Assembly: GCF_015221995.1 (NCBI RefSeq)
Contig: NZ_JADFFM010000002.1
Coordinates: 372,001 to 436,000, forward strand
DNA: 64,000 nucleotides
Direction of reading: 5' to 3'
Source of the DNA: Mucilaginibacter boryungensis
GTDB taxonomy: Bacteria > Bacteroidota > Bacteroidia > Sphingobacteriales > Sphingobacteriaceae
Both the position numbers and the translations under genes were made by a program. Within the stretch, counting starts at the first letter, position 1. Each line of letters begins with the position of its first letter. Of the stretch, positions 5,845 to 46,639 are shown one piece after another. Under the pieces are notes generated by a model that made no database searches, had not been told where the DNA came from, and saw only the letters and a program-made list of their open reading frames with translations.

Positions 5845-8778
5845 ATGATGATCATAAAATCCGCTTGTATTAGCCATAACTATAAAATTTCCAATGCCCT
5901 TATTGGATTCTTCCTGCTTATTTTAAGTTTGAACCTGGTTTGCATAAACGGATGTGCCCAGGCAAATCCATCGCTCACATTCAATGCCGTTGTGCAGCCT
6001 TATTATAAATACCGTAAAGATGGTAAGCCTGGTCGTGCCGTATACCTGGCGTTTAAAGGTGACAGGCTTAACGAAGCCGCTTCCATAAAAGTGGAATGTA
6101 ACGGGACCACTGAAGAAACCGATATCCCTAAAAACGAAAAAGGCCTGGAAGGCACCACGATAATGCTTCCTGCCGGTGCTGGTTTAGATAAATTATGCCA
6201 GGCACGCGTTACTATTACCACTGCTAAAAATGTGATGTACCAATCGGTGTTTGTACCGGTATTAAAGCAATGGACGGTTTACATTTATCCCCATTCGCAT
6301 GTGGATATTGGCTATACCAACACGCAGGAATTTGTGCGCAAGCTGCACATGCGCAATATTGATGTGGCGATTGATATTGCTAAAAAAACGCAGAACTACC
6401 CCGAAGGGTCGCGGTTTGTTTGGAACCCCGAAGCTAATTGGGTAACCGAAAATTACCTGAAAGAAGCATCGCCCGAAAAAAGGAAAATTTTTATTGATGC
6501 CGTAAAAAAAGGTTGGATAAGTTTGGATGGCGATTATGCCAACGTAAATACCAGCGCCTGTACCGACGAGGAATTGCTGAGGCTGTTTCACAATGGTCAT
6601 GAAATTTCGGCTGTTACCGGTGTGCCTATTAAAACCATGGTGCAAATGGATGTGGCCGGCGCATCATGGGGGACAGTGCAAGCTGCTTATCAAAACGGTA
6701 TCCGCGGCTTTTTTATATATCCTAATATTGGTACCATAAGAGACCCTTGGGAACACCGCCCGTTCTATTGGGTTGCCCCCGATGGAAAATCAAAGATCTT
6801 TTTTTTACAGGCCCTGCCTTATGGCTTTGGCTATACTATAAAAGGCTCGAAAATTGGTCTGCACAAAAGCCAGGGTAACGACCCATCGCTGGATCGTATC
6901 GTTACCGGCAAGCCCGATGAAAATTTTGTAGGTGACCTGGTGTTCGATGAAATAGCGAAGCTGGAAGCCAAACGTTCGCCTTATAACATACTGGTAATAC
7001 CATGGGCTTTAGCCGATAATGCCCTGATAGATGCCGACCTACCCGATGCTGTGCGCAATTGGAACGAAAAATATGCTTATCCTAAACTAATTATATCCGG
7101 CTCGCAGCGTATTTTGGATGATTATGAAAAACGTTATGGCGATATCATCCCCCAGGTGAAAGGCGATTACAGCGAGTACTGGACAGATGGGCTGGGGTCG
7201 GATGCTAAACGCGTAGGTGAATACCGTCGCGCTACCGAAAACATTGTGCAAGCCGAAACCGCCTGGAGCATGCTGAATTACACTAAACCAGCGCCACGTA
7301 AACTAATTGACAGCGCCTGGCAAAACTGCTTGCTGGGTGCCGAGCATACCTGGGGCTACCAAGACCCTAAAGCGCCGCTGGCCAAGCAAATAGAACAAAC
7401 CAAAGCATCGTTTTTTGAAAATTCGTTGAAAAACAGTCAGGAATTGCTCAATCTGACATTCAACACTATCAAGAGTGCAGCAAGCAATAAAATAGCGGTG
7501 TTCAATACCCTATCGTGGGCCAGGGATGGTTTGGTTACCTTAAGTAAAGAGCAATCAAAAGCCGGTGACCGTGTGCTGGATGAACAAGGGCTTGAAATGC
7601 CATCGCAACGCTTATCATCAGGCGAGCTGGTTTTTATGGCTAAGCAAATACCGGCGCTTGGCGCTGCAACCTATACAGTTACAACAGGCGAAAGTAAATT
7701 GAAAAATGGTTGCAGTATCAGCAATAATACATTAACAAACGGCCTGCTCACCCTGCATATCGACCCCGAAAACGGCGATATCAACAGCCTTAAGGAGGTT
7801 AAAACCGGGCAGGAATATGTAGACAAAAAATCAAAATACGGGTTAAACAGCTACCGCTACCTGCTGGAAACGGATACGGCCAACATAGGTTCGAAACCTT
7901 ATAACATTAAGTTAAAAATAAAAGATAACGGCCCGCTGGTAGCCTCGGTAGTTGTATCATCAAGCGCCGAAGGCTGTAACTGGCTTACGCGTGAAGTAAA
8001 GGTAGTAAACGGACAGCCCTGGGTTGATATAACCAATATACTGGACAAGATAAGCACCCCCACTAAAGAGGGCATTCATTTTGGTTTTGCCTTTAACGTG
8101 CCCGATGGTAACACCAGGCTGGATATCCCCTGGGGGACAATGATCCCTGAATATGACCAGATAACCGGCAGCAATAAAAGCTGGTTAACCTTTCAGCACT
8201 GGGTTGATATTTCAAATAACGAAACCGGTATTACCTGGACATGTATAGAAGCCCCTTTAATTGAAATGGGCGAAATGACGGCCAATGTGCTGGGCGGTGC
8301 GCATGGCCGTAAAAACTGGTATAAAACCCTGCCAAAAACACAAACCATGTTCTCGTGGGCGTTGAATAACCACTGGGGTACCAATTTTCCTTTAGAACAA
8401 GGCGGTGTGATGAATTTCCACTATGCCTTGCTGCCTCATCAGATTTACGATGCCGTAGCCACCAATCGTTTTGGACTGGAGCAAAACAGGCCTTTAATCG
8501 CTATTCCGGTGGATAAGGCTCCGGCTGTAAAAAACTGGATTAAAATTGGTAACCCTAATGTGCTGATATCAACCTTAAAACAGAGCGACAATGGTAAAGG
8601 GATGATATTAAGGGTAAGGTCGGTTTCGGACAAGCCTGAAAAGGTGCTATTAAGCTGGCCCGGCGGCAAACCCCGCAAGCTCTACACTTGCCTTGCCGAT
8701 GAAAAGCCCGAAAAACCGATAACTACAGATCAAACCATTCTGCCATTGGGCACCATTAGTTATTATTTTGAAATGTAA
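5845..8778 (+). CDS. GH38-like secreted glycoside hydrolase (alpha-mannosidase fold)
   Basis: A 977-residue exported protein. I chose the ATG at 5845 because the frame further upstream opens only with a GTG next to the terminator, and this start gives a signal peptide (hydrophobic LIGFFLLILSLNLV, then Cys and AQA). The N-terminal domain has the GH38 zinc motif HSHVDIGYT (His-x-Asp) and a candidate nucleophile Asp in MVQMDVAGASWG. LGAEHTWGYQDP probably supplies another metal ligand. The C-terminal half is a large beta domain of the GH38 C-terminal type. GH38 enzymes are zinc-dependent alpha-mannosidases, but these motifs differ from the textbook HxDPGW and HHD forms, so the substrate may not be mannose. 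Its own transcript probably starts after the terminator. Confidence 0.75.
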   Translation: MMIIKSACISHNYKISNALIGFFLLILSLNLVCINGCAQANPSLTFNAVVQPYYKYRKDGKPGRAVYLAFKGDRLNEAASIKVECNGTTEETDIPKNEKGLEGTTIMLPAGAGLDKLCQARVTITTAKNVMYQSVFVPVLKQWTVYIYPHSHVDIGYTNTQEFVRKLHMRNIDVAIDIAKKTQNYPEGSRFVWNPEANWVTENYLKEASPEKRKIFIDAVKKGWISLDGDYANVNTSACTDEELLRLFHNGHEISAVTGVPIKTMVQMDVAGASWGTVQAAYQNGIRGFFIYPNIGTIRDPWEHRPFYWVAPDGKSKIFFLQALPYGFGYTIKGSKIGLHKSQGNDPSLDRIVTGKPDENFVGDLVFDEIAKLEAKRSPYNILVIPWALADNALIDADLPDAVRNWNEKYAYPKLIISGSQRILDDYEKRYGDIIPQVKGDYSEYWTDGLGSDAKRVGEYRRATENIVQAETAWSMLNYTKPAPRKLIDSAWQNCLLGAEHTWGYQDPKAPLAKQIEQTKASFFENSLKNSQELLNLTFNTIKSAASNKIAVFNTLSWARDGLVTLSKEQSKAGDRVLDEQGLEMPSQRLSSGELVFMAKQIPALGAATYTVTTGESKLKNGCSISNNTLTNGLLTLHIDPENGDINSLKEVKTGQEYVDKKSKYGLNSYRYLLETDTANIGSKPYNIKLKIKDNGPLVASVVVSSSAEGCNWLTREVKVVNGQPWVDITNILDKISTPTKEGIHFGFAFNVPDGNTRLDIPWGTMIPEYDQITGSNKSWLTFQHWVDISNNETGITWTCIEAPLIEMGEMTANVLGGAHGRKNWYKTLPKTQTMFSWALNNHWGTNFPLEQGGVMNFHYALLPHQIYDAVATNRFGLEQNRPLIAIPVDKAPAVKNWIKIGNPNVLISTLKQSDNGKGMILRVRSVSDKPEKVLLSWPGGKPRKLYTCLADEKPEKPITTDQTILPLGTISYYFEM

Positions 8779-8792
8779 ATTAAGATCACATA

Positions 8793-8824
8793 AAAGGCTG
8801 CCCCAAAAGGGCAGCCTTTGTTTT
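8793..8824. terminator. Bidirectional terminator between convergent genes
   Basis: An 11-bp perfect stem (8793-8803 with 8809-8819) and a short loop, with A before and T after. It sits between the GH38-like gene and the convergent SRPBCC gene and can serve both. Confidence 0.85.
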
Positions 8825-8842
8825 ATCATGTGCATCGGTTTA

Positions 8843-9331
8843 TTAAGCTTCCAGTAACTCGTCCAAATTGCCAAGGGCCATGGTAAAGCCGCCTTCGAAG
8901 CCCATTTGGACCAAAGTTTGCATATCGGTTTCCGAATCAAACTCAAGGGTCACATCAACTTTCGATCCTGTTTCTGTAGCGCTGAATGCAATATCCCAAT
9001 AACTGGTTGGCATAGTGTTGGTCAGGTTACCATCCTCGTCGCAAAAGGCGTGGGCGGTTGTAAAGCTTTTTTGTGGGTCTACAGTTTTAAAATCAACCCG
9101 CGACCAATGTTTTTCTCCCTGTGGGCCGGCCATGCAATAAAGCCAGGTACCGCCCTCTTTAAAGTCCATTAGCTTGGTTTGTGCCTGCCATGGCCTGGGT
9201 GCCCACCATTTATCCAACAATTCGCTTTCAGTCCATGCTTTCCATACTTTGTTTAATGGCGCATTAAAATGACGCACTACATGTAGTTTCCTGTTTGCCA
9301 GGTCCTTGGTAATTTCAGTGTTGTTTTTCAT
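8843..9331 (-). CDS. SRPBCC (AHSA1-like) domain protein
   Basis: A 162-residue cytoplasmic protein of the START/Bet v1-like SRPBCC superfamily. Typical features are VVRHFNAPLNKVWKAWTESELLDKWWAP near the N-terminus, the central GEKHWSRVDFKTVDPQKSF, and a C-terminal helix with LVQMGFEGGFTMALGNLDELL. Such proteins have a deep hydrophobic ligand cavity; the true ligand is unknown. The start is 9 bp after the stop of the ArsR gene on the same strand. This ArsR-SRPBCC pair is a common arrangement in which the regulator controls both genes. Confidence 0.85.
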   Translation of the reverse strand: MKNNTEITKDLANRKLHVVRHFNAPLNKVWKAWTESELLDKWWAPRPWQAQTKLMDFKEGGTWLYCMAGPQGEKHWSRVDFKTVDPQKSFTTAHAFCDEDGNLTNTMPTSYWDIAFSATETGSKVDVTLEFDSETDMQTLVQMGFEGGFTMALGNLDELLEA

Positions 9332-9340
9332 AATTGCAGT

Positions 9341-9646
9341 TTATAAATCGTTTAATAAATTATCTAACTGGTTAAACCGGTCGTCCCACAACTGGCGGAA
9401 CTTTTCAAGCCATAAGTCTATTGTTTTCATCTTTTCAGGATCAAGCTGATAGTAAATTTCCCTGCCCCTTTGCTGCTGGTTTACCACTTCGCATTCGGTT
9501 AGTATTTTAATATGTTTTGATACCGCCTGCCGGGTGCTGTCAAAATGTTCGGCCAGGGCGTTTGGTGTCATAGCCTGCACTGCCAGCAGTACTAAAATTG
9601 CCCGGCGTGTGGGGTCGGCAATGGCCTGAAAAATATCTCTTCTCAT
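9341..9646 (-). CDS. ArsR-family winged-helix transcriptional regulator
   Basis: About 101 residues when started at the ATG at 9646 ([15 protein letters not shown]). A longer frame reaches 9694 but would start inside the promoter. The winged helix shows [19 protein letters not shown], the recognition helix [13 protein letters not shown], and the wing [14 protein letters not shown]. No cysteine metal-site motif (CxC) is seen, so it probably belongs to the metal-independent branch usually paired with SRPBCC genes. A Bacteroidota-type promoter covered by a two-fold symmetric repeat lies directly upstream, which suggests autorepression. Confidence 0.9.
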
Positions 9647-9664
9647 AATTTCTTCTATATATTT

Positions 9665-9706
9665 GCAACCGTTTGATTGCAAATATAAATGCAATTGTTT
9701 GGTTGC
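9665..9706. promoter_or_regulatory. Likely ArsR operator: two GCAAyyGTTTGrTTGC repeats
   Basis: Two near-identical 16-mers, GCAACCGTTTGATTGC (9665-9680) and GCAATTGTTTGGTTGC (9691-9706), lie 26 bp apart. The outer arms (GCAACC/GGTTGC) and inner arms (ATTGCA/TGCAAT) share one symmetry centre at 9685.5. The repeat overlaps the -33 to -7 region of the promoter, as expected for a repressor site. Confidence 0.6.
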
Positions 9707-9711
9707 GCAAA
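9680..9711 (-). promoter_or_regulatory. Promoter of the ArsR-SRPBCC operon (TTTG-N20-TATATTTG)
   Basis: On the minus strand a -33 TTTG (9708-9711) is followed after exactly 20 bases by TATATTTG (9680-9687). This fits the Bacteroidota sigma-ABfr promoter consensus, about 35 bp before the chosen ATG. Confidence 0.7.
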
Positions 9712-9789
9712 TTTTTTTTCATTTTTTTAGTTAAACTATAATTAATATTTTTAATCAAATAGCTCAAAACGCCTGCTATATAACTGAAC

Positions 9790-10596
9790 ATGAAGGACTT
9801 TTACTACCTGCTGGGGACGGACAGCAAGGCTACGCCGCAAGAAATAAATTCGGCCTATCGGAAGCTGGCCAAAAAATTTGACCAGGACGGCGGCGAATAT
9901 GATCATTTTCTGGACAGCCACTTTCGTGAGATAACAGAGGCGTACCAATTACTAAGCGATCCTGTTCGTCGCCGCAAGTACGATATTGCTTTAAAGAAGG
10001 CCGAGCAGCGGCGTTTTTACTGGTGGTTCAGGGTTAGGCACCTTACTGTAGCCGCATCACTTGCGCTGGCATGTTTTACCAGCTTGTTTGGCTGGTATGT
10101 AATAAACTCGTTAAAGGGATCAAAAAAGGCCCTGGTAGTTAAAACTCCAATGCTTAGCGCCGCTAAGGTTAAGCATCACAAAAAAAAGAAACTGCTACAG
10201 AAAAAAGCTAAAGATGCCGCTCCCCTGGTTGCAACAACCATAGCAAGGCCAATAAAGATAAAAAGGGATACGCCTGTTATTAAAAAAGTTGCACCCGTTA
10301 TTGTTACTGCCAAACAAGCGCCTTTAATAGCTACGCAACCGGTAGTCACAAAGCAACCGGCAATAATTAAGTCGCCGGTGGTTGAACCGGATAATGAAAC
10401 TTATACCGCAACCATACAGGCTAACATGACGGGTATAGTTAACCTGCACCAGCAATCGGGCTATACATCGGCAGTAATTGCCAGTATCCCAAACCATTCG
10501 CAGGTTAAAGTATTGGAAAGGGGCCAAAGCTTTTATAAAGTATTCTACAACGGACAAACAGGCTATGTGCCAAAATGGACCATCCCCACTCCCTAA
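9790..10596 (+). CDS. Membrane-anchored J-like domain protein with C-terminal SH3 domain (HPD lost)
   Basis: A 268-residue protein in three parts. Residues 3-67 resemble a DnaJ domain (FYYLLGTDSKATPQEINSAYRKLAKKF ... ITEAYQLLSDPVRRRKYD), but the HPD tripeptide that stimulates Hsp70 is replaced by DQD at residues 31-33. A transmembrane segment follows (about residues 82-100, LTVAASLALACFTSLFGWYV), then a long Lys/Pro/Ala/Val-rich linker. The end (about 202-268, ANMTGIVNLHQQSGY ... FYKVFYNGQTGYVPKW) looks like a bacterial SH3 domain. The topology would put the J-like domain in the cytoplasm and SH3 in the periplasm, where it could bind peptidoglycan. It is divergent from the ArsR gene and stands alone. 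The role is unknown. Confidence 0.75.
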   Translation: MKDFYYLLGTDSKATPQEINSAYRKLAKKFDQDGGEYDHFLDSHFREITEAYQLLSDPVRRRKYDIALKKAEQRRFYWWFRVRHLTVAASLALACFTSLFGWYVINSLKGSKKALVVKTPMLSAAKVKHHKKKKLLQKKAKDAAPLVATTIARPIKIKRDTPVIKKVAPVIVTAKQAPLIATQPVVTKQPAIIKSPVVEPDNETYTATIQANMTGIVNLHQQSGYTSAVIASIPNHSQVKVLERGQSFYKVFYNGQTGYVPKWTIPTP

Positions 10597-24875: not shown

Positions 24876-26411
24876 CTATCCTGTAATTTTTGGCAAGCCT
24901 TTGGTTGCGGGACCAGTCAGCACGGTACCGTCAATATCGTAGCGGGCACCATGGCAAGGGCAGTCCCATGTTTTCTCGGAGCTGTTCCAATTCACAATAC
25001 ATTTGGCATGCGTGCAAACCGGACTCAAAGCATGAATAACCCCGTCTTCGTCCCTATAGGCGGCTATTTTTTCGCCGTCTACTTCCACTACTTTGCCCGT
25101 ACCCGGTTTAATCCTTTGTAATGAATCTGTTTCATGGATATTAATGCGGTCAGCCACAAAATGATAGGCCACATCGGCATTTTCCTTCACAAACTCGCTA
25201 AAACCATCTATCGGTTTCAGGCGGGAAGGGCTGAACAGATCGGCATAGGCATTTGCTTTTCCCAGCACCAGGTCGCTTAGTATTTTAGCCGACACACTGC
25301 CCAGCATCATTCCGTTACCATTGTAGCCGGTTGCACAGTAAACACCATCAGCTGCAAAGGGCATTTGCCCAACATAGGGCAAGCCATCAACAGGGATATA
25401 ATATTGAGATGACCATTGGTATTTAACCGAGGAAACCTGATAATATTTACGGATATATTTTTCAAGATCGGCGAAAGCCTTTTCCGGATCCTCATGCGCG
25501 GTTTTATGGTCCAGGCCGCCTACAAGCAGCAATTGCTGCCCCTCAATAGTATGGGTGCGAACATAATGGTACGGGTCCTGCATGTCGTAGATCAGGGCAT
25601 CAGGATATTTCCCGCTCTTTAATTTAACCGCCATAACATAGCTGCGGTAAGGCGCGCATTCAAAATTGAACACATTGATATTGGGTGGCATATGTGTAGC
25701 GTAGATCACTTTTTTAGCCCGAACACTAACACCCGCTGCTTCAGCAACATGAATGCCATCCCCGCTATCCAGTTTTTCTATTTTGGTATTTTCCATAATA
25801 ATGCCACCAGCTGCCAGATAGGCTTTTTGTAATCCCTGCAGGTATTTTAAAGGATGAAATTGGGCTTGTCCGTCAAATTGTAGGGCTCGGGTATAGGGTA
25901 CAGGCGTCGGTACCTGTTCGGCATACTGAACGGCAATACCAACCTTAAGCGAACCTTCATATATTTCATCCAGCTGCTGGTCCTGCTTTTCATCTTCGGC
26001 ATATATATAGCCTGGTTTGCTTTCGTAATCGCAATCGATCCGATAATCGTCAATATTCGATTTGATTAGGGCGAAACCCTCGTTAATAGCATCGGCAAAC
26101 AGCTGGGCGCCTTCTTCGCCAAAGGCACTTTCCGCCTGTTTATAGGTAGTATCGGCAAACGTATTGATATGGGCACTTGTCCCGCCCGTTGTCCCGAAAC
26201 CAACACTATGGGCCTCGGCAATGATGGTTTTCTTGCCGGCGTTTTGCAACAATAACGCAGCAGTCAGGCCGGTGATCCCGCCGCCTACTATCAGGCAATC
26301 ATATAAAATATCTGCTTTATTGTCATAAACCTTGGAGATACTTGCATTCAAACCTGCCTGCCAGGCGCTTTCATTTTCTCCGTCTCTTTGGATATTATTT
26401 GCAGTGGTCAT
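24876..26411 (-). CDS. FAD-dependent oxidoreductase with C-terminal Rieske [2Fe-2S] domain
   Basis: A 511-residue protein. The N-terminal dinucleotide motif LIVGGGITGLTAALLLQNAG is followed by a DAO-type (glycine/D-amino-acid oxidase-like) domain with GFGTTGGTSAHIN and the second FAD segment GLPYVGQMPFAADGVYCATGYNGNG. From about residue 425 a Rieske domain carries the cluster ligands CTH and CPCH (Cys-x-His ... Cys-x2-His). Such fusions are known in many bacteria and probably pass electrons from a small amine or similar donor to a soluble acceptor; the substrate is unknown. It stands beside stress-type genes (small membrane protein, Hsp20) but is not in an operon with them. Confidence 0.88.
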   Translation of the reverse strand: MTTANNIQRDGENESAWQAGLNASISKVYDNKADILYDCLIVGGGITGLTAALLLQNAGKKTIIAEAHSVGFGTTGGTSAHINTFADTTYKQAESAFGEEGAQLFADAINEGFALIKSNIDDYRIDCDYESKPGYIYAEDEKQDQQLDEIYEGSLKVGIAVQYAEQVPTPVPYTRALQFDGQAQFHPLKYLQGLQKAYLAAGGIIMENTKIEKLDSGDGIHVAEAAGVSVRAKKVIYATHMPPNINVFNFECAPYRSYVMAVKLKSGKYPDALIYDMQDPYHYVRTHTIEGQQLLLVGGLDHKTAHEDPEKAFADLEKYIRKYYQVSSVKYQWSSQYYIPVDGLPYVGQMPFAADGVYCATGYNGNGMMLGSVSAKILSDLVLGKANAYADLFSPSRLKPIDGFSEFVKENADVAYHFVADRINIHETDSLQRIKPGTGKVVEVDGEKIAAYRDEDGVIHALSPVCTHAKCIVNWNSSEKTWDCPCHGARYDIDGTVLTGPATKGLPKITG

Positions 26412-28044: not shown

Positions 28045-28074
28045 TTTGCGATAATATATATTTTTATATATTTG
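28045..28074 (+). promoter_or_regulatory. Promoter of the amino-sugar operon (TTTG-N18-TATATTTG)
   Basis: A -33 TTTG (28045-28048) and a -7 TATATTTG (28067-28074), 18 bases apart, fit the Bacteroidota promoter consensus. The next bases form the GTGTACGTAAACG operator-like site, placed over the expected transcription start. Confidence 0.65.
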
Positions 28075-28086
28075 TGTACGTAAACG
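28074..28086 (+). promoter_or_regulatory. Operator-like site A (GTGTACGTAAACG)
   Basis: Related to three other sites in the window (35868, 45125, 50842) with the shared core TACGTA. It begins at the last base of the -7 box, a position suited to repression of the GH84 operon. Confidence 0.5.
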
Positions 28087-28121
28087 TTCAGCATTATTTA
28101 TCGTATTTTATCTTCTTAATT

Positions 28122-29519
28122 ATGATGGGCCAACACCTGTTCACTAAAAAACGTATCGTTTTTTTGGTTATACTAACATGTAGCTACGTGCGGTTATTTG
28201 CGTTTAATAATCAACAAACAAACCTAAAATATGCGCAAATGCAGGATTCATTACCTGCAATTAAAGAGGTTCCGGTAAGACTGCCTAAAACAAAAAACTC
28301 TTTTTTAGAGAAAGCCGAAATGAGTGCCGACCCAACCGGGTTCAAAATTCGCGGTACCAAAGGCTGGTCGTGGACACCAGAGCAATACCTGGCAGAGATA
28401 CCTGTGCTGGCCAAATACAAAATGAACTTCATGATGAATTGCTATATCTCGATGTTCAGTCACCCCCTGCCTGCAGACAGCCTTTGGAAATTAACAACTA
28501 CAAAAAATGAATGGTGGCTGCCTATCCCTGATGCTAAAAAGAAAGCCTACGAAAGAGTATTTGCAAAAGCCCGGGAATACGGCATATCCTTTTGTTTTGG
28601 AGTACATGCACAATTAGCTTCTCCCCGGCCGGCAAACTTATCCAGCGATAAGGATTTTGAGGCAATATGGCAGCATTATGCCTGGGCCCAAAGCAAGGGC
28701 ATACACTGGTTTTCGGTACCGTTGGATGATGTAAACGAAAAGGACACCAGGATAAGCGGCGAAGAACATGCGCGGTTTGTAAACAGAATATTGTCTCGCC
28801 TGCGCGAAAAGGACAAGGACGCACAAATGATATTTTGCCCAACTTACTACCATGCCGATGCCAAGGTGCCTAAAGAAAAAGCTTACCTGGAAGGTGTGGC
28901 CAAAATACTTGATAAGGATGTTTACGTTTTCTGGACGGGGAAATCGGTATTACCTACAACCATTACCGTTGCCGATGCGGAAGAATTTAAAAGTATGGTT
29001 AAACACAGGGTGATACTATGGGATAATTATCCGGTAAACGACGCCTGGAAAACACTGCACCTGGAGCCATTGACCGGCCGTGACCGGTTGCTGTCTACCG
29101 TTGTTGATGGCTATATGGCAAATCCCCATTTTATGCAAAATGATATTAACCGGATCCCCCTGTTCACCATAGCCGATTATGCTTATGATCCCATCAGCTA
29201 TAACCCCGAAACTTCTATTGGCCAAGCTATTGTGCACCAAACCGATAATATTAAGCAACAGCAGGCGCTGTTGGAGTTCACCCGGCTATATTCAGGTAAT
29301 ATCGTTCGCAATGTTGCATTTAACCAGGTAGTGGAAAATGCAAAGCGTATCATGTCGGCACCTTTTTCGCGCCCGGTTGCCGATGCCTACATCGCTTATC
29401 TGAAAAAAGTACAATTGGATCTCGAAAGAGAATTCCCCGGTCAATATACATCTGCTAAAAAAACATTTTCCGAAAGCATCCGGCAGGTAGAAACTGACTA
29501 TGCCTATAAATATAAATAA
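28122..29519 (+). CDS. GH84-like beta-N-acetylglucosaminidase
   Basis: A 465-residue exported protein. The ATG at 28122 (or 28125) is preferred over the GTG at 28074, which lies in the promoter. A basic start and hydrophobic stretch (RIVFLVILTCSYVRLFAF) form a signal sequence. GH84 marks are GTKGWSWTPEQYLAEIPVLAKYKMNF, the catalytic Asp pair in WFSVPLDDVNE, VYVFWTGKSVLPTTIT and VILWDNYPVND. GH84 enzymes use substrate-assisted catalysis to remove beta-GlcNAc (hyaluronidase or O-GlcNAcase type). This version lacks the usual extra N- and C-terminal domains. It leads an operon with MurQ and a NagP/FucP-type permease, which fits an N-acetylhexosamine substrate. Confidence 0.8.
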   Translation: MMGQHLFTKKRIVFLVILTCSYVRLFAFNNQQTNLKYAQMQDSLPAIKEVPVRLPKTKNSFLEKAEMSADPTGFKIRGTKGWSWTPEQYLAEIPVLAKYKMNFMMNCYISMFSHPLPADSLWKLTTTKNEWWLPIPDAKKKAYERVFAKAREYGISFCFGVHAQLASPRPANLSSDKDFEAIWQHYAWAQSKGIHWFSVPLDDVNEKDTRISGEEHARFVNRILSRLREKDKDAQMIFCPTYYHADAKVPKEKAYLEGVAKILDKDVYVFWTGKSVLPTTITVADAEEFKSMVKHRVILWDNYPVNDAWKTLHLEPLTGRDRLLSTVVDGYMANPHFMQNDINRIPLFTIADYAYDPISYNPETSIGQAIVHQTDNIKQQQALLEFTRLYSGNIVRNVAFNQVVENAKRIMSAPFSRPVADAYIAYLKKVQLDLEREFPGQYTSAKKTFSESIRQVETDYAYKYK

Positions 29520-29563: not shown

Positions 29564-30385
29564 ATGACTAAAATTACAGAGCAGCCATCTAAATACCGTC
29601 ATTTAGAAAAAATGTCTATCGAAGAATTGACGGCTAACATTAACAAGGAAGATAAAACTGTAGCTTTTGCTATTGAGCAGGCCCTGCCGCAGATCAATTT
29701 ACTGATCCACAACGTTGTAACTAAACTTAGCCACGGGGGACGGATGTTTTACCTTGGGGCGGGCAGCGGCGGCCGTCTTTCTGTATTAGACATTATTGAA
29801 CTCCCCACTACATATGGCGCCCCTAAAGGTCAGGTAAATTCGATATTAGCAGGCGGAGCCGAACATTTAATAGAGGCGCTGGAAGAAAAAGAGGATGATA
29901 CCGAAGAAGCCTGGAGTAAACTAAGCGAGGCAAGCATCTCACCAAAAGATATTGTAATTGGAATTTCGGCCAGTGGCACTACACCTTTTGTTTTAGCGGG
30001 ATTAAAAAAATGCAGGGAACACCACATTGCAACTGGCTGTATTGTTAGTAACCCCGATTCGCCGATTGCTGCACTGGCGGACTTCCCTGTTGAAGTAATT
30101 ACCGGCCCGGAGTTTATATCGGGCAGCACCCGCATGAAATGTGCTACTGCACAAAAAATGATCTTCGATATGATCAGTACTACAACCATGGTTAGGTTGG
30201 GTCGGGTTGAGGACAACAAAATGGTGAACGTAGCGCTAATAAACGATAAAATTACCGACCGTGCTGTAAAAATGTTAATGGAAACAGCCAAGCTAACCGA
30301 TTACCAGCAAACCAAACAATTGTTGCTTGAAAAAGGGAGCGTAAAAAAAGCATTGGATCACTTATCTGCTACAAATACGCATTAA
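29564..30385 (+). CDS. murQ: N-acetylmuramic acid 6-phosphate etherase (MurQ-type, SIS domain)
   Basis: A 273-residue SIS-fold protein. MurQ marks are LGAGSGGRLSVLDIIELPTTYG with the active-site Glu, AEHLIEALEEKEDD with the second Glu region, GISASGTTPFV, and GPEFISGSTRMKCATAQKMI. MurQ cleaves the lactyl ether of MurNAc-6-phosphate to give GlcNAc-6-phosphate and lactate, in the cytoplasm. It is slightly shorter than the ~300-residue norm at the C-terminus. No MurNAc kinase is in the window, so MurNAc-6P must be formed elsewhere, or the enzyme acts on another phosphosugar. It is 44 bp after GH84 and 4 bp before the ceramidase-like gene. Confidence 0.88.
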   Translation: MTKITEQPSKYRHLEKMSIEELTANINKEDKTVAFAIEQALPQINLLIHNVVTKLSHGGRMFYLGAGSGGRLSVLDIIELPTTYGAPKGQVNSILAGGAEHLIEALEEKEDDTEEAWSKLSEASISPKDIVIGISASGTTPFVLAGLKKCREHHIATGCIVSNPDSPIAALADFPVEVITGPEFISGSTRMKCATAQKMIFDMISTTTMVRLGRVEDNKMVNVALINDKITDRAVKMLMETAKLTDYQQTKQLLLEKGSVKKALDHLSATNTH

Positions 30386-30389
30386 TGTC

Positions 30390-32387
30390 ATGCTCATGAT
30401 CAGGAAATTCCAAGTTGTTCTCGCGCTATTACTGTGTAGTTTGTCTGCCACTTATAGTCAGGAATATTTAACAGGTAGTTCGGTAGTAAGTATAGAACCC
30501 GATAGCAGCATATATTCTGTAGCGATTGCCGGGTATGGTGCCCCGCGCGAAGGGCGTTTCAGCATTACGTGGAAGCTGATAAGCGATATACCTGAAACGG
30601 CAGCCATTACTACACTAAACGGCAAATTATATGCCGCCGGTAAAGACGGCGAAATAATGGAAGGCGTCCTTTTACACGATCATATCTCCTGGAAAATCCT
30701 TGAAAATAAAGCCCCGGTTACATGCTTAACCGTTTTAAATGGTAAATTATATGCAGCGACGACAACAGGCGATTTATTACAGGGAACATTAAGTTTGAAC
30801 GGTATCGTTTGGCTGCATATAGGCAAAAGCAATAACATTACCGGGCTAACCGGTATCAATGGTAAATTGTATGCAGCTAACAGCAGCAATGGTTTGCTAA
30901 CGGGGGTTATTTGGAAAAATAAATTAACGTGGGTTAATACCGGGCAAGCTTATCGAATACTTGGCATGGCCAATGATGGCGAGCGGGTGTATTATATTAA
31001 TTCGGGTGATACCTTGTGGTTTAGCAAACCCGGACAACCATATAATCAGTGGCGCGAGATTGGCCGGCATAATTCGTTTACGTTTAATATTCATATTAAA
31101 CATATTTTGGTGCTTAATGGCCGGTTATATGCCGTATCAAAAGATAATAAACTTTACCTGGCACACCACAGTACCAAAGGCGATCTTACCGTACGTTCGC
31201 TGGCAGTGAAAAAGGGCAGGCAAACCGCAGTAATAACCACGCTTGACGTTACCGGTTTCAACTACACTTTTATTAAAACTATAAAAGCCGAGATATTTAA
31301 AAGAAGGGGACTGCCTGAAGCCGCATTATTAATTAATGCCAGTCATACCCACTTTGCCCCCGTCACTCAAGCCTGGAGTGCCTGGGGCGATTTTTATCAT
31401 ACCCCCGATAGCAATTATTTAAACCGCATTGTTAAAAAAGCGGTTATCCGTTCCATTGAACAGGCTTTGGATAACCTTGGCCCCGCACAAATATCTTTTG
31501 CACGCGGCACAACCAATATTGGCGAAAACCGCCGTGGCGCTAACAACCTGGCGAAACCTTATGATAAAACTTTAGATATTATTAAAATCACCCATCCCGG
31601 CAACGGCAAAAGCGAAGTGTTATTCACAACAGGCTGTCATCCGGTGTTCAATAACTCTGAAGCTAATTCAACTTTTACATTAAATGCAAATTACCCGGGC
31701 GTAGCAAAAAGGCTTATCCAGGAAAAAACCGGCTATAAGGCAATCTTTGTGCAGGGTTGTGGCGGCGATATCAATCCACGCGTATTAGACTATGAGAGCA
31801 CCGGGAAAGAATTGGCTGATGATGTATTAAACAGGTTAAATAGTGATATGAAAAAAGTATCCGGTGATATATCTTACTCGCTCGATGAGATACAGATCCC
31901 TGTTAAACCCTGGAGCCTTAAAAAAGTACAGGATTTTAAAGCTGAAAATGCGGCGGCTGTGATTGAAGAAAAAAAGAATACGCCACCCTATTCTGCCGAG
32001 GGGCAGTTTGTATTAACCCAGCTATTGGAACGCGAAAAGAATGTTCGTTGGGCAAATATTATGCTGGATAACTACAAAAAAGGCACAGTGGCTAAAACGA
32101 TGCCTTTATACGTCCAGATTATCAATATAGGGCCGTGGAAATTGGTAGGCCTTTCCAGGGAAGTTACTACAGAATATGCGGAAGCCATTCGCGCCCTATG
32201 GCCGGATCAATTGGTTTCCGTAGCCGGATATTGTAATGACGTGCCCAGTTACTTACCACGGGACTGGCATATCCACGACAGCACATACGAGGGTTACGAC
32301 TCATTTTTTTGGTATGGCCAGTCGGCCGTGCCACCGGCCAATGTGCGCGATATTGTACTTAACGGAATTAAAAAACTGCACCGCTAA
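30390..32387 (+). CDS. Ceramidase-like amidase with inserted five-repeat beta-propeller
   Basis: A 665-residue secreted protein with a signal peptide (VVLALLLCSLSATYSQ). The enzyme part resembles neutral/alkaline ceramidases: VAIAGYGAPREGRF near the start, then LLINASHTHFAPVTQAW, FTTGCHPVFNN and FVQGCGGDINPR, which carry the expected zinc His residues. Between residues 60 and 262 this domain is interrupted by five repeats of exactly 40 residues, each beginning with Trp (61, 101, 141, 181, 221), with NGKLYAA in the first three and NGRLYAV in the fifth. The repeats look like a tectonin/tachylectin-2-type propeller. The enzyme family hydrolyses N-acyl bonds; in this amino-sugar operon the substrate could be an N-acylated sugar or lipid-linked glycan. 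Confidence 0.75.
   Translation: MLMIRKFQVVLALLLCSLSATYSQEYLTGSSVVSIEPDSSIYSVAIAGYGAPREGRFSITWKLISDIPETAAITTLNGKLYAAGKDGEIMEGVLLHDHISWKILENKAPVTCLTVLNGKLYAATTTGDLLQGTLSLNGIVWLHIGKSNNITGLTGINGKLYAANSSNGLLTGVIWKNKLTWVNTGQAYRILGMANDGERVYYINSGDTLWFSKPGQPYNQWREIGRHNSFTFNIHIKHILVLNGRLYAVSKDNKLYLAHHSTKGDLTVRSLAVKKGRQTAVITTLDVTGFNYTFIKTIKAEIFKRRGLPEAALLINASHTHFAPVTQAWSAWGDFYHTPDSNYLNRIVKKAVIRSIEQALDNLGPAQISFARGTTNIGENRRGANNLAKPYDKTLDIIKITHPGNGKSEVLFTTGCHPVFNNSEANSTFTLNANYPGVAKRLIQEKTGYKAIFVQGCGGDINPRVLDYESTGKELADDVLNRLNSDMKKVSGDISYSLDEIQIPVKPWSLKKVQDFKAENAAAVIEEKKNTPPYSAEGQFVLTQLLEREKNVRWANIMLDNYKKGTVAKTMPLYVQIINIGPWKLVGLSREVTTEYAEAIRALWPDQLVSVAGYCNDVPSYLPRDWHIHDSTYEGYDSFFWYGQSAVPPANVRDIVLNGIKKLHR
30570..31172 (+). 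repeat. Five 40-residue protein repeats (propeller insert)
   Basis: Coding repeats of 120 bp each in the ceramidase-like gene. Each protein repeat starts with Trp and carries a central NGKLYAA-like strand, and the spacing is constant at 40 residues with a one-residue longer last unit. Repeat 4 is the most diverged (GERVYYINSG). Five blades would close a small propeller. Confidence 0.8.
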
Positions 32388-32398
32388 ACACATATATC

Positions 32399-33676
32399 AT
32401 GAACGATGGAAACTATAGCGCTCCTAATATAAACCGGTCGATGATCATCATCGGGGCTTTATTTTTTATATTTGGTTTCGTTACCTGGCTTAGTTCGGTA
32501 TTAATACCTTATTTAAAAATTGCCTGTCAGCTTAACAACTTCAAAGCTTATCTGGTAGTTTTTTCATTTTATATTTCTTATTTAATTATGGCCATCCCAT
32601 CGGCCTGGGTGCTTAAAATGACCGGGTTTAAAAATGGAATGGCTATTGGCCTGGTATTAATGGCCGTTGGGTCGATGGTTTTTATACCGGCTGCTATATA
32701 CCGGACATATGGCTTTTTCCTTACGGGATTATTTATACAGGGATCGGGCCTTGCTATTTTACAAACCGCCGCAAACCCTTACGTTGCTATTTTGGGCCCC
32801 CGTGAAAGCGCAGCAAAAAGGATCAGTTTTATGGGCATTTGCAATGGGGTGGCTGGGGCTATGGCCCCTATTATTTTAGGTTCTGTGATCCTGGCCGATT
32901 CGGATGGATTGCAGGGGCGTATTAACGCCATGCCCACCCTTAAAAAATTAGCCGCGCTGGATACCCTGGCACAACGCGTTATTATGCCATATATAATTAT
33001 CAGCATTGTTTTAATGATCCTTTCTGTTGTGATCTACTTTTCCGGCTTGCCCGAAGTTGAAGCTGAGGAAGATGAAGCCACTGGTTCGGCCAATGCCCAT
33101 AAAACAAGTATATTTCAGTTTCCGCATTTAATAGTCGGCGTATTTACCCTCTTTTTATACGTAGGTGTCGAGGTTATCGCCGGCGATTCTATAGTTAACT
33201 ATGGGGCATCGCAAGGCATAGCATTATCAACCGCCAAGTTTTTTACAGCCTGTACATTAAGCGGCATGTTAGTAGGCTATATTGTTGGCATTATTTGCAT
33301 CCCTAAGTATTTCACCCAGGAAAATGCCCTCAAGGTATCTGCAATATTGGGAATAATTTTCTCTGTAGCAGCCCTTTGTACAAGTGGCTATATTTCCATT
33401 ATGTTTATCGCTTTTCTAGGCTTGGCCAACTCGCTCATGTGGCCTTCCATATGGCCATTAGCTATTACCGACCTGGGGCGTTTTACTAAACTCGGATCGT
33501 CACTTTTAATTATGGCAATAGGCGGCGGCGCGGTATTGCCTTTACTATATGGCCGGCTTGCCGATAAGTTTACACCCCATTATGCCTATTGCATAGTGGT
33601 GCCTTGTTATTTTGTTATTCTTTATTATGCCGTTTACGGACATAAGTTACGCACAGGCGGTGCAATTAAAATTTAA
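32399..33676 (+). CDS. MFS sugar permease, NagP/FucP type
   Basis: A 425-residue inner-membrane protein with about 12 segments. The start IIGALFFIFGFVTWLSSVLIPYLKI is the hallmark of the FucP/GlcP/NagP group, and QTAANPYVAILGP is its second signature. These permeases move fucose, glucose, galactose or N-acetylglucosamine with protons. The gene is 11 bp after the ceramidase-like gene and behind GH84 and MurQ, so GlcNAc or MurNAc is the best guess. It is strikingly similar to the second permease at 56058-57356, which points to duplication within this region. Confidence 0.9.
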   Translation: MNDGNYSAPNINRSMIIIGALFFIFGFVTWLSSVLIPYLKIACQLNNFKAYLVVFSFYISYLIMAIPSAWVLKMTGFKNGMAIGLVLMAVGSMVFIPAAIYRTYGFFLTGLFIQGSGLAILQTAANPYVAILGPRESAAKRISFMGICNGVAGAMAPIILGSVILADSDGLQGRINAMPTLKKLAALDTLAQRVIMPYIIISIVLMILSVVIYFSGLPEVEAEEDEATGSANAHKTSIFQFPHLIVGVFTLFLYVGVEVIAGDSIVNYGASQGIALSTAKFFTACTLSGMLVGYIVGIICIPKYFTQENALKVSAILGIIFSVAALCTSGYISIMFIAFLGLANSLMWPSIWPLAITDLGRFTKLGSSLLIMAIGGGAVLPLLYGRLADKFTPHYAYCIVVPCYFVILYYAVYGHKLRTGGAIKI

Positions 33677-33715: not shown

Positions 33716-34855
33716 ATGAAAAGGAATGCTTTAATACTCTTCTTCTCCGCTGTAACTTCACTGGTGATACTTGTCACGTCTTTTAGCTGTATGGCCAGGA
33801 AAGTTAATTATACAGACAGCCTGCTCACCTATAAAAATAAAGCCGGGAAAAATGCACCTATTAAAACATTGGCTGAATGGCAGCGGAAACGGGCCCAAAT
33901 TCTGGAAGGCATGCAACAAGCTATGGGGCCGCTTCCTTCCATGAAAGGTCTTCCGCCGTTAAATATTAAATATATTGATAGTGTAAAGGAGGATAATTTC
34001 ACTTGCTATACTATCAAATTTACAGTAGCAGTTAACGAAACGCTCCCTGCGCTTTTATATGTCCCGCATCAGAAAAGCAAACTTAAAAAGCTGCCTGCCT
34101 TAGTTGTATTACACGGCACCGATGCTTTGGGCAAAAGGGTGTTAAGCGGCATCAGCCCTAAACCAAACCGTGCGTATGCAAAGGAACTGGCACAGCGCGG
34201 TTATGTAGTAATAGCGCCCGATTATCCAAGCTTTGGCGATATGGCTGACTATGACTTTGGAAAAGACCGCTACCAATCGGGAACGATGAAAGCCATTTTT
34301 GATCATATGCGCTGTGTCGATCTTTTGCAGGGCAGGGCATATGTAGACCCTGATCGTATAGGTGTTATCGGCCATTCGTTGGGTGGGCATAACGCCATGT
34401 TTTTGGGTGCGTTTGATAAACGTATAAAGGTAATAGTAGCAAGCTGCGGCTGGACATTGTTTGATAATTATGATATTGGCGAGGAAGGTTCAAAAAAATT
34501 TGGCGGTAAGCTTGGGCCCTGGGCGCAGGATCGTTACATGCCACTGTTGCGCGATAAATACAAACTTGATGCGGCCCGGATACCCTTTGATTTTGACCAG
34601 GTTATTGCGACACTTGCCCCACGCCCATTTTTTTCAAACTCGCCTTTAAACGATGCTAATTTTAATGTGGCCGGAGTAAAAAAAGGTATTAGCAACGTAT
34701 CGAAGGTTTATAATTTTTTAAATGCACCTGCTAATTTGCAGGTAAGATATCCTGAAGCCACACACGATTTTCCGCCAGCAGTTAGATTGGAAGCTTATCA
34801 TTTTATAGACAGCGTACTTAAACACACACCAACCGAGCATCCATTACTGCCGTAA
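33716..34855 (+). CDS. Secreted alpha/beta hydrolase (dienelactone-hydrolase/acetylesterase-like)
   Basis: A 379-residue exported protein, possibly a lipoprotein (hydrophobic LVILVTSFSC). The fold is shown by the strand LPALVVLHGTDALGK, the nucleophile elbow IGHSLGGHNAMFLG, APRPFFSNSPLNDANF near the acid position and the closing TH in PEATHDFPP. The nucleophile elbow differs from the GCSRxG of glucuronoyl esterases (CE15). It is the last gene of the amino-sugar operon, 39 bp after the permease. It probably removes an acyl group from the glycan, but the bond cut cannot be told. Confidence 0.8.
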   Translation: MKRNALILFFSAVTSLVILVTSFSCMARKVNYTDSLLTYKNKAGKNAPIKTLAEWQRKRAQILEGMQQAMGPLPSMKGLPPLNIKYIDSVKEDNFTCYTIKFTVAVNETLPALLYVPHQKSKLKKLPALVVLHGTDALGKRVLSGISPKPNRAYAKELAQRGYVVIAPDYPSFGDMADYDFGKDRYQSGTMKAIFDHMRCVDLLQGRAYVDPDRIGVIGHSLGGHNAMFLGAFDKRIKVIVASCGWTLFDNYDIGEEGSKKFGGKLGPWAQDRYMPLLRDKYKLDAARIPFDFDQVIATLAPRPFFSNSPLNDANFNVAGVKKGISNVSKVYNFLNAPANLQVRYPEATHDFPPAVRLEAYHFIDSVLKHTPTEHPLLP

Positions 34856-34905: not shown

Positions 34906-35655
34906 CTAAAGCAGGACAAGATTAGTATTTTGGTATGGCTTTAATATATCGCTGTTTACAGGCAATTCGGTAATAAGATAGTCCACTTTGTCGATACCAC
35001 AAATATTTAGCCGTTGTACGGTGTCCAATTTTTCTGAGATAGTCATTACAACCACTTTTTTAGCACAACGGATAAGTGCTTTTTTTACCTGCACTACTTC
35101 CCAGTCTACATCGGTTAATCCATCCTTCACCGAAAAAGCATTAGCGCCTAAAAAGCAAATATCTGCCCGCAATTCGGCCAGGCGGTTAATTACAGCCGAA
35201 CCTATATGTAAATTTGCATTTTTAACCAGTTTTCCGCCAATAGTGACAACATCCAGGTTACTGTGCTCAGAAAGTGTGATAGCAACCTGAGGGCTTATGG
35301 TAAAAAAGGTAGCCTTAATGTGATCGGGGATCATCCGGGCAAGCTCCAGCATAGTCGTACCTCCTTCGGTGACAATAACACTGTTGTTTTTAATTAATTT
35401 TAGGGCTTTTTGTACAATTCTTTTCTTTTCCTCGGCTGCATAAACATCTGTTTGCGTGGTAAAGGTTGAAACAAATGATGGGCTTACCGCTCCGCCGTGC
35501 ACCTTTAAAATTTTACCCGAATCAACAAGTTCTTTTAAATCGCGCCTGATGGTATCATCAGAAACTTTAAGCAACAAACTTAAATCTGTAGATAATACTT
35601 TATTGTGGAGATTGATCTCCTTAATGATCATTTTCTGCCGCTCTTCTTTAAGCAT
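34906..35655 (-). CDS. DeoR-family transcriptional regulator
   Basis: A 249-residue regulator. The N-terminal helix-turn-helix has the DeoR signature (VLSTDLSLLLKVSDDTIRRDLKELVDSGKILKVHGGAV). The C-terminal DeoRC domain, an isomerase-like sugar-phosphate sensor, contains IVTEGGTTMLELAR, VVTIGGKLVKN and DICFLGANAFSVKDGLTD. DeoR proteins usually repress sugar genes and sense a phosphosugar. It is convergent with the amino-sugar operon and divergent from the lipoprotein gene at 35993, so it may act on either; GlcNAc-6-phosphate is a plausible effector given MurQ. Confidence 0.92.
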   Translation of the reverse strand: MLKEERQKMIIKEINLHNKVLSTDLSLLLKVSDDTIRRDLKELVDSGKILKVHGGAVSPSFVSTFTTQTDVYAAEEKKRIVQKALKLIKNNSVIVTEGGTTMLELARMIPDHIKATFFTISPQVAITLSEHSNLDVVTIGGKLVKNANLHIGSAVINRLAELRADICFLGANAFSVKDGLTDVDWEVVQVKKALIRCAKKVVVMTISEKLDTVQRLNICGIDKVDYLITELPVNSDILKPYQNTNLVLL

Positions 35656-45253: not shown

Positions 45254-46639
45254 TTATCCTTTAACTACTTTCTTCAAACGCTCGGCATTAGCGTGTGTCT
45301 TTTCGATAGCAGACGCTATGGCGTCCATATCTGCTTTGCTTCCTAAAAGCAGGTTCTGTGTAAACCATACCGCTTCATTACATAACTGATTATTCTGGGG
45401 GCACTGGTTCCTATCCATATAATCTTTGTAATTCAGCATTTCCTTAGGATATATTTTTTTATAGTTTTTAGATTCGAAAGTTTCTTTAATAAATGGCTGA
45501 TCGTTCAATGTAGTGTATCCGCTTGAACATGGGACACCCTCGGCCCTTAGTGATTCCAGGAACCCAGCGCGTGATAACCCCTTAAACTCTTCGGATTTAT
45601 AGCGGAACGGAAAAAGGTGAAAAGCAGCCTGCGTTACATTGTCATAAAGTTTATAAGGCAATATACCCGGCACTTTGGCAATTTTTGCACTTAGATAAGC
45701 TGCATTTTCATTACGCGTAACTGTTTGCGCCTGCAAGCGGGCTAGTTGGGCCAGCCCAATTGCAGCCTGGTATTCTGTCAGCCTTACTTTGGTACCCTGC
45801 ATCAGGCTTCCGGTATTTGGCTTTCCAACAAAACTGCCATATGGCAAACCCAGGTTCTGATAGGAGAAACACCTGTCTAAAAACGCATCATCACTACTTA
45901 CAATAGCTCCACCCTCGCCTATTGGAATATTTTTTGAGTTCTGGAAGCTGAAGCATCCGGCATCGCCAATTGTCCCTACCTTTTTATGATTTATCTCGGC
46001 TAACGGCGCCTGACAGGCATCCTCAACAACAAGCAAGTTGTGTTTCTTCGCAATCGCCATAATATGATCCATGTCCGCAGGCAAGCCTAATATATGTACA
46101 GGCAATATCGCTTTGGTGCGCGGGGTAATTTTTGCTTCGATCTTATTTGGATCGATCTGGAAAGTTTGCGGATCAACATCAACAAACACCGGCATAGCAC
46201 CGTTGGCTAAAATAGCTTGTACTGTGGCAACAAATGTATATGGTGGCACAAGTACCTCATCGCCCCCGCGTATGTTTAATTGATCGAGCGCGACAATTAA
46301 AGCATTAGTACCATTGGAAACTACAAGACTGCGTTTAGCGCCTAATGCTTGTGCCCAGGCCTTCTCAAATTCGGCTACTACAGAGGCCCGCGACCATACA
46401 CCGCTCCTTAATACTTCAAGCACACGCTTTTCGTCTGTTTCTGGTATCCATATTGGCCATTTTATCCACCTTGAGGTATCCCAGGCGGCCTGGCCACCCA
46501 GCAATGCAGGCGTCGAGGCTGATTTTGAACCTATGGCGAAAACAGATGGGGCTGCATTTAATGCTAATACAGTGCCTATGCCAGCAATGGAACTTTGTTT
46601 CAAAAATGTGCGTCGTGTTGAAGTAATTCTATTTTTCAT
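45254..46639 (-). CDS. Tat-exported DegT/DnrJ/EryC1/StrS-type PLP aminotransferase (PUL B)
   Basis: A 461-residue protein that starts with a near-perfect twin-arginine signal: STRRTFLKQ (Arg9, Arg10), then SIAGIGTVLALNAAPSVFA. The fold-type I aminotransferase is complete: substrate/PLP phosphate segment VVSNGTNALI, the PLP-binding Asp in VVEDACQAP, and the Schiff-base Lys in SFQNSKNIPIGEGG (Lys236). DegT enzymes aminate keto-sugars or, rarely, dehydrate or deaminate amino sugars; nearly all known ones are cytoplasmic. Here the signal predicts export with PLP already bound. It lies between the lyase gene (80 bp) and the SusC gene, near an exported Gfo/Idh dehydrogenase. Confidence 0.88.
   Translation of the reverse strand: MKNRITSTRRTFLKQSSIAGIGTVLALNAAPSVFAIGSKSASTPALLGGQAAWDTSRWIKWPIWIPETDEKRVLEVLRSGVWSRASVVAEFEKAWAQALGAKRSLVVSNGTNALIVALDQLNIRGGDEVLVPPYTFVATVQAILANGAMPVFVDVDPQTFQIDPNKIEAKITPRTKAILPVHILGLPADMDHIMAIAKKHNLLVVEDACQAPLAEINHKKVGTIGDAGCFSFQNSKNIPIGEGGAIVSSDDAFLDRCFSYQNLGLPYGSFVGKPNTGSLMQGTKVRLTEYQAAIGLAQLARLQAQTVTRNENAAYLSAKIAKVPGILPYKLYDNVTQAAFHLFPFRYKSEEFKGLSRAGFLESLRAEGVPCSSGYTTLNDQPFIKETFESKNYKKIYPKEMLNYKDYMDRNQCPQNNQLCNEAVWFTQNLLLGSKADMDAIASAIEKTHANAERLKKVVKG

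Follow-up and report, generated by a model that had tools for sequence, protein, structure and literature searches.

Why does an enzyme that resembles a ceramidase lie among genes for amino-sugar use, and what are the repeats that interrupt it? The question is raised by a stretch of 64,000 nucleotides from Mucilaginibacter boryungensis (contig NZ_JADFFM010000002.1, positions 372,001 to 436,000; hereafter the window), which encodes a protein of 665 amino acids with, by eye, a signal-peptide-like stretch at its N-terminus. A first-pass annotation had described this protein as a ceramidase-like enzyme with an inserted lectin module. Modelling predicts that the insert consists of five four-stranded blades set within a neutral-ceramidase fold.

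A predicted propeller within a ceramidase-like fold

The AlphaFold2 model was run on an alignment of 51 sequences, which comprises the window protein and 50 relatives drawn from 49 loci after exclusion of near-duplicates, second copies, contig-edge fragments and unparsed frames. It has a predicted local distance difference test score (pLDDT) of 91.3 and a predicted template modelling score (pTM) of 0.91. The whole chain aligns to the neutral ceramidase of Pseudomonas (PaCD, 2zws) with Z 38.4 over 363 residues and a root mean square deviation of 2.5, in agreement with the ceramidase-like label. Across residues 59-260 the model has twenty strands, grouped as five sets of four, and the insert matches five-bladed propellers over residues 53-264, so that the proposed propeller is borne out at the level of the prediction and would close as a ring. 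The best fold match of the insert is glutaminyl cyclase 3nol (Z 20.8, 201 residues), which we take to be a five-bladed propeller like the cyclases 3nok, 3mbr, 2iwa and 2faw; fishelectin and tectonin 2 (Z 13.9) are also among the fold matches. We infer ring closure from the fold match and the strand order: strand 59-66, which contains W61 and precedes blade 1, would complete blade 5 and close the ring. Completion of the last blade by the first strand is the classical closure of propellers.

Comparison with PDB sequences required a family profile, as a search with the single window protein gave nothing useful. The best match of the profile was the designed propeller Cake10 (4.1e-12), followed by 2zws (8.3e-9), 3hxj (1.2e-5) and BamB (3.6e-5). 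Pfam PQQ_2 is matched by 11 of the 51 family members. The window protein matches NCBIfam BamI at 4.9e-05, far under the cut-off, and Pfam DUF6242 is over its cut-off for the isolated insert and under it for the whole protein; we read these matches, together with one to KIB1-4, as generic propeller signals.

The repeats had been called five exact units of 40 residues. The tryptophans indeed stand at residues 61, 101, 141, 181 and 221, exactly 40 apart (codon 61 begins at position 30570 and residue 261 finishes at 31172), and the self-match of residues 61-260 is maximal at a shift of 40, with 40 identities compared to 29 in the best of 5000 shuffles (0/5000 reach it). The 40-residue period is beyond chance. 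The units themselves are not identical: ungapped identity among units 1-3 is 38, 30 and 38%, unit 4 is divergent (5-20% to units 1-3), and unit 5 extends to about 46 residues because its NG motif comes six residues later. At the DNA level, over 40 nt, unit 2 shares 63% of its nucleotides with unit 1 and 80% with unit 3. In the regularity of its repeats the window protein is third among the 40 full-length members, behind L095 and L096 of the Chryseobacterium group (designations beginning with L denote loci).

The insert follows directly after the sequence GAPREGRF, as had been stated, and it precedes the His-Thr-His (HTH) zinc motif. It is not adjacent to this motif: the last insert strand ends at residue 260 and HTH begins at H319, and in the model two core strands, one helix and one more strand lie between them. 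In insert-less relatives the place of the insert is taken by a Gly-Ile-His type stretch (GIH/GVH).

An excerpt of PMC5915598 gives active-site zinc as a requirement of neutral ceramidase. The alignment to 2zws places H319, H417, E591 and Y621 of the window protein on His97, His204, Glu411 and Tyr448 of PaCD. We assume that these four PaCD residues are the zinc ligands. At the level of the family, 44 of 51 members match the ceramidase family PF04734 at E<=0.01 (best 1.6e-11). It is highly improbable that the protein is a true ceramidase acting on sphingolipids of the bacterium or its surroundings: fold and zinc ligands are those of neutral ceramidase, but the window protein scores 13.2 bits against PF04734 and does not reach the gathering score of 32.1, the Gly-Ile-His type loop is replaced, no part of the protein aligned to the C-terminal part of 2zws beyond residue 486, and the neighbours are sugar genes.

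We also considered whether the repeats are a normal part of the ceramidase domain, present in all family members, and rejected this. Insert-less relatives exist, three of them paralogues in the same genome, and at the insert-less loci L108-L113 the GY/GF motif and HTH are 68-71 residues apart, compared to 266-275 in full members. In addition, the plasmid matches listed (10 of 16 records) all begin at query residue 249-266.

Insert size classes and conservation

A pattern-based scan of 84,980 species genomes yielded 78 loci, kept from the best 80 of 515 matches. L036-L107 (72 loci) are insert-type or contig-edge fragments, eight frames among them being classed as insert-type from the extent of the match, and L108-L113 are insert-less. 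Hosts include Chitinophaga, Mucilaginibacter, Alistipes, Odoribacter, Parabacteroides, Tannerella sp., Proteiniphilum, Dyadobacter, Pedobacter, Sphingobacterium and Chryseobacterium. Odoribacter laneus (L041) has two insert-type copies in tandem (6056-7975 and 8001-9920). Within the family of the window, 25 of 399 genomes match at 1e-30, 22 with insert-type and three with insert-less proteins (L031-L033). In a sample of the phylum, the only match among 395 genomes at the same threshold is the window itself, which suggests that the family is uncommon.

The insert is full in 40 of the 51 aligned sequences and shorter in 11. The R56-to-W221 stretch measures 159-168 residues in the full members and 131, 104, 103, 102, 98, 93, 92, 90, 82, 81 and 67 residues in the short ones, whereas W221 and D286 are 64-68 residues apart in all 51. 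In all 11 short members the absent stretch covers blades 1-3 in whole or in part; strand d1, strand d5, blade 5 and most of blade 4 are retained. By length, one short member would have about four blades, seven would have three and three would have two; except for L074 these are estimates. Similar size classes were found in a further genome set. The short variants are unlikely to be assembly errors, the frames being intact in 11 aligned sequences from several genera.

In a tree of the core, with the insert left out, the four insert-less rows lie on one side of a branch with support 100/98. The state "short" needs six changes on this tree, and the minimum forced by its starred branches is also six. 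The tree tool flagged long branches, including those of the short member L077 and the outgroups L108 and L032, which makes at least one of the six less sure. Since the full insert is common and widely distributed, our reading is that blades were lost and not gained.

The shortest member, L074 from Pedobacter yulinensis, was also modelled (mean pLDDT 88.7). Its model has a strand at 65-69, a linker of low confidence and then seven strands making two blades. Residues 63-168 align to residues 29-251 of glutaminyl cyclase 3nok over 90 residues with Z 7.2, a value around 7 saying little by itself. The first strand aligns to the start of the target and the remainder to its end, as expected from an excision of inner blades. 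Excerpts of PMC6805158 describe two-blade tachylectin pieces that assemble as pentamers into two five-bladed rings, as well as WD40 fragments that build oligomeric rings, and in part of PMC9218822 propellers that are highly repetitive and have too few blades are taken to be fragments. On these precedents, a short member could exist as an open arc or assemble with copies of itself into a ring.

We rejected a mobile or phage origin of the protein: one scan of viral contigs with this single protein found no close relative, and of 16 plasmid records none matches 80% of the query at a single place.

Conservation differs along the insert. Mean information, computed on the 40 full members, rises from 1.63-1.93 bits in blades 1-4 to 2.26 bits in blade 5 and 2.71 bits in the core. 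Identity of at least 75% is reached in blades 1-4 at W, L, Y and G positions only. Blade 5 contains the invariant N228, and at position 260 it has His in 92% of the full members but in less than 75% of the short ones. By its higher conservation, blade 5 appears to be the part tied to the enzyme, and it may lie at the active site.

These data bear on the suggestion that the insert is a lectin module which holds an amino-sugar glycan near the catalytic site. The cluster is one for amino sugars, the fold matches include fishelectin and tectonin 2, and Pfam Tachylectin and Tectonin are each matched weakly by 6 of the 51 relatives (Tachylectin at E<=0.01). Against this, the window protein and its isolated insert have no match to Pfam Tachylectin (PF14517) at E<=1, and the best matches of the insert are glutaminyl cyclases by fold and Cake and PQQ/BamB-type blades by PDB sequence; tachylectin as closest kin of the window protein was rejected on its sequence. 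Tachylectin-2 is not among the 50 fold matches listed, an absence that excludes nothing. No set of repeated sugar sites is seen, because conservation in blades 1-4 is limited to scaffold positions, and in the 11 short members entire blades, or much of blades 1-3, are missing; several of these members are still near MurQ (e.g., L064, L074, L083, and L097). In addition, 17 of 47 insert-type loci have a separate tachylectin-type protein. We therefore regard a lectin role as distinctly unlikely.

Gene neighbourhood and proposed function

The coordinates of the features are listed in Table 1. At the window, the cluster of a glycoside hydrolase family 84 (GH84) gene, MurQ and a NagP-type permease is as first annotated. 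Elsewhere this set holds in part: MurQ and the NagP-type permease recur, but a GH84 homologue was found by tblastn in 0 of the 72 other insert-type loci. The label of the putative regulator comes from relatives: three of its seven homologues are among the scanned neighbours, where three members match DeoR domains. The window copy of MurQ is one of two MurQ matches in its genome, and the top MurK-like kinase match in that genome (46% identity; G000:C1:1816318-1817160) lies outside the window cluster.

Table 1. Features of the window (positions counted from its first nucleotide).
Feature	Position	Strand	Evidence
GH84-type beta-N-acetylglucosaminidase, first gene of the cluster	28074..29519	+	PF07555 NAGidase 1.3e-49
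MurQ, N-acetylmuramic acid 6-phosphate etherase	29564..30385	+	NF003915 313.6 bits (cut-off 168); TIGR00274 256 bits (under cut-off 302)
Ceramidase-fold zinc hydrolase with propeller insert, 665 aa	30390..32387	+	Open reading frame, AlphaFold2 model, fold comparison
Strand d1, residues 59-66 incl. W61, probable ring-closing strand of blade 5	30564..30587	+	Model; present in 11/11 short relatives
Blade 1 (predicted), residues 67-98	30588..30683	+	Strands 70-76, 79-84, 88-94; block lost or reduced in 11/11 short relatives
Blade 2 (predicted), residues 99-137	30684..30800	+	Model strands; block lost or reduced in 11/11 short relatives
Blade 3 (predicted), residues 138-177	30801..30920	+	Model strands; block lost or reduced in 7/11 short relatives
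Blade 4 (predicted), residues 178-217	30921..31040	+	Model strands; 31-41 residues of block kept in 11/11 short relatives
Strand d5, long loop and blade 5 (predicted), residues 218-262	31041..31175	+	Invariant N228, near-invariant W221
H319, putative zinc ligand (PaCD H97)	31344..31346	+	Alignment to 2zws; invariant in 51
H417, putative zinc ligand (PaCD H204)	31638..31640	+	Alignment to 2zws; invariant in 51
E591, putative zinc ligand (PaCD E411)	32160..32162	+	Alignment to 2zws; invariant in 51
Y621, putative zinc ligand (PaCD Y448)	32250..32252	+	Alignment to 2zws; invariant in 51
NagP/GluP-type major facilitator superfamily (MFS) permease	32399..33676	+	NagP 8e-114, 380.8 bits (under cut-off 625); gluP 311.4 bits (over cut-off 202.55)
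Alpha/beta hydrolase	33716..34855	+	PF12697 5e-10, PF22244 2.2e-09; homologues in four other insert-type loci (L049, L054, L069, L084)
Probable DeoR-type regulator	34906..35655	-	tblastn homologues in seven other insert-type loci

Among the 47 insert-type loci longer than 17 kb, MurQ is encoded near 35, a NagP-like permease near 26, a MurK-like kinase near 20, a DegT-type aminotransferase near 19, the tachylectin-type protein near 17, GH20 near 15 and GH89 near 12. Over all 72 insert-type loci, many of them truncated, MurQ is near 42, and it is also found in two of three extra insert-type regions (L130 and L131; not L132). Two metagenome-assembled genomes of Tannerella sp. (L061 and L069) encode the insert-type protein near MurQ. 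MurQ is near none of 21 insert-less regions (L108-L113, L117-L129, L133 and L134), nor near any of the 14 that are at least 17 kb long. Within this control set seven regions are shorter than 17 kb, L125 and L127 are on one contig, the enzyme of L120-L122 was not re-found by the query and was placed by earlier coordinates, and the genome of L124 also holds, at a distance of about 11-17 kb, an insert-type gene with its MurQ (L130). In the window's family, at least two murQ genes are carried by each of the 22 insert-type genomes, compared to 40 of the 377 others (counted by eye; Fisher 4e-20 with kinship ignored). This points to a dedicated second MurQ besides the common one.

With confidence somewhat short of even, we favour the reading that the protein is a secreted (periplasmic) zinc amidase of ceramidase fold that serves the scavenging of N-acetylmuramic acid (MurNAc) and N-acetylglucosamine (GlcNAc), with blade 5 shaping its active site. 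Outside the cytoplasm, a hexosaminidase (GH84, GH20 or GH89, depending on the species) would trim the fragment, and the window enzyme would then cut an amide, most likely the one that joins L-Ala to the lactyl group of MurNAc. The NagP-like permease would import the sugar, the MurK-like kinase would phosphorylate it and MurQ would remove the lactyl ether. In the enzyme itself, the five-bladed propeller would replace the loop near the active site that is of Gly-Ile-His type in insert-less relatives. Blade 5, the long loop with N228 and the first strand would shape the active site and be essential, and blades 1-3 might be a scaffold or a substrate-gating extension that was lost in several lineages. 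It seems most economical to assign to this enzyme the cutting of an amide outside the cytoplasm ahead of sugar import. Known families of peptidoglycan amidases are not among the 25 most frequent of the 51 families in 121 scanned neighbours. Excerpts from the literature on Tannerella forsythia state that this organism uses MurT, MurK and MurQ (PMC5790795) and that its data might indicate strong periplasmic amidase activity (PMC7670621).

Several points weigh against an amidase of this kind. Neutral ceramidases cut fatty amides and not sugar-peptide amides, and GH89 acts on alpha-GlcNAc, which is absent from the peptidoglycan backbone; one GH89 enzyme acts on heparosan oligosaccharides, according to part of PMC8225759. 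MurNAc use does not need the enzyme, because MurQ is far more widespread (395 of 399 family genomes, compared to 22 with the insert-type enzyme). MurQ is missing within about 8 kb at 12 of the 47 loci, namely seven of Chryseobacterium together with L049, L062, L063, L066 and L089, and the seven Chryseobacterium loci carry none of the tested neighbours. A NagP-like gene is also present at one insert-less region (L126). DegT aminotransferases also stand beside insert-less relatives (L112, L124, L127 and L128), and an amine product fits them at least as well.

The last point leads to the main rival, an N-deacylase in which the zinc site would remove the acyl group from a hexosamine and DegT would act on the free amine. 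Chemically this is attractive: by analogy, the amide of GlcNAc or MurNAc stands beside oxygen-bearing carbons much as in the 2-amido-1,3-diol of ceramide. DegT is near 19 of the 47 insert-type loci and 4 of the 21 insert-less regions, and there are single clusters with a NagA-like or a GlcNAc-2-epimerase-like gene (L070 and L071). However, the downstream NagP-like permease, MurK-like kinase and MurQ are named for N-acetylated sugars, and DegT accompanies both kinds of relative whereas MurQ accompanies only those with the insert. We consider N-deacylation unlikely, and the amidase remains our preferred reading.

Propellers often bind proteins, and the insert might instead be a docking surface for a partner such as an outer-membrane importer or the glycan-binding lipoprotein of the cluster. 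Several clusters have candidate partners, namely a SusD gene (L056), SusC/SusD-like frames seen by eye and tachylectin-type proteins. Yet no SusC/SusD-like pair was seen by eye directly beside the window cluster, and the information content of the 40 full members revealed no conserved surface in blades 1-4. We consider docking as the role of the propeller very unlikely.

If blade reduction and the amidase reading are combined, the insert would have shrunk from five blades to about four, three or two on several independent occasions, the inner blades being cut out and the ring-closing blade kept as part of the active site. The short members would be stable open arcs (or self-assembled rings), and the family would represent a new, predicted class of ceramidase-fold MurNAc-peptide amidases of Bacteroidota. 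We put this combined picture forward as possible rather than probable.

Further observations were made in these neighbourhoods. Chryseobacterium-group loci L088, L091-L094, L096 and L098, as well as the shorter locus L095, keep the full insert while the tested neighbours are absent; the four members of the group that are in the tree sit on a long branch, and the group may act on another substrate. A lipoprotein-like protein upstream of MurQ (L065, 4515-5720) combines a BT_3987 N-domain with a Pfam Tachylectin domain (1.1e-09). It has tblastn relatives in L048, L057, L060, L064, L083, L097, L100, L101, L104, L075 and L106, and over part of its length in L038, L040, L041, L043, L074 and L082. 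Two of the 121 scanned neighbours match Pfam Tachylectin at 1e-6, and the remaining tachylectin-type calls rest on tblastn. DegT-type aminotransferases beside insert-bearing and insert-less genes (L072, 6612-7958; L112, 6447-7793; L124, L127 and L128) include several with an exported-looking N-terminus, and a DegT-like frame lies elsewhere in the window (45254-46639; both by eye). In two genomes of the window's genus, a gene that by eye is dipeptidase-like directly precedes the insert-less ceramidase-like gene (L119, 7082-9538; L003, 265-2784). A DUF218 gene precedes MurQ in L036 (4272-7143) and L076 (5755-7041), to which Chitinophaga adds a gene of the endonuclease/phosphatase family. The window also encodes a DAO-type oxidoreductase fused to a C-terminal Rieske domain (24876-26411).

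Comparison with known systems

Propellers are usually regarded as closed rings that grow by blade addition. Here, one family combines at least six tree-forced changes of insert length with matched full and short homologues, which permit a direct test of whether a two-blade open arc is stable within a host domain. The enzyme is also a recurrent and so far unexplained hydrolase of MurNAc/GlcNAc clusters in Bacteroidota from gut, soil and Tannerella-related lineages. Should it prove to cleave the peptide, the set of enzymes that open peptidoglycan fragments would gain a new fold, and it might be the kind of enzyme behind the amidase activity that part of PMC7670621 suspects in the T. forsythia periplasm. 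In the literature search, from which subscription papers were mostly absent, none of the titles listed connects ceramidase in this sense to a propeller or to muropeptides, and none of them concerns a ceramidase in a murQ or sugar-use cluster.

With neutral ceramidases (PaCD 2zws and 2zxc, human 4wgk; PF04734) the enzyme shares the predicted catalytic fold and the four zinc ligands. It differs from them in the five-bladed insert that replaces the Gly-Ile-His type loop, in having no match to the C-terminal part of 2zws, in its sub-threshold Pfam score and in its place in a sugar-gene cluster. The fold of the insert is shared with glutaminyl cyclases 3nol, 3nok, 3mbr, 2iwa and 2faw and with the C-terminal domain of YjiK, 3qqz (Z 18.5-20.8 over 190-201 residues), at 11-16% identity and with no sign of a common function. 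Blades of about 40 residues are also typical of BamB/PQQ-type and designed Cake propellers, but those rings mostly have other blade numbers and are not inserted in a ceramidase-fold enzyme. Tachylectin-2 and Tectonin share the W-rich blades and the weak Pfam matches described above, the tachylectin-2 repeat being given as 47 residues in the first-pass annotation compared to 40 here. Bacillus subtilis reportedly rescues muropeptides with a hexosaminidase and an amidase. The MurTKQ system of T. forsythia, as excerpted from PMC5790795, shares with the window cluster the logic of transporter, kinase and etherase in MurNAc use. Compared to both, the window cluster has a NagP-type MFS permease and, in place of a known amidase, the ceramidase-fold enzyme.

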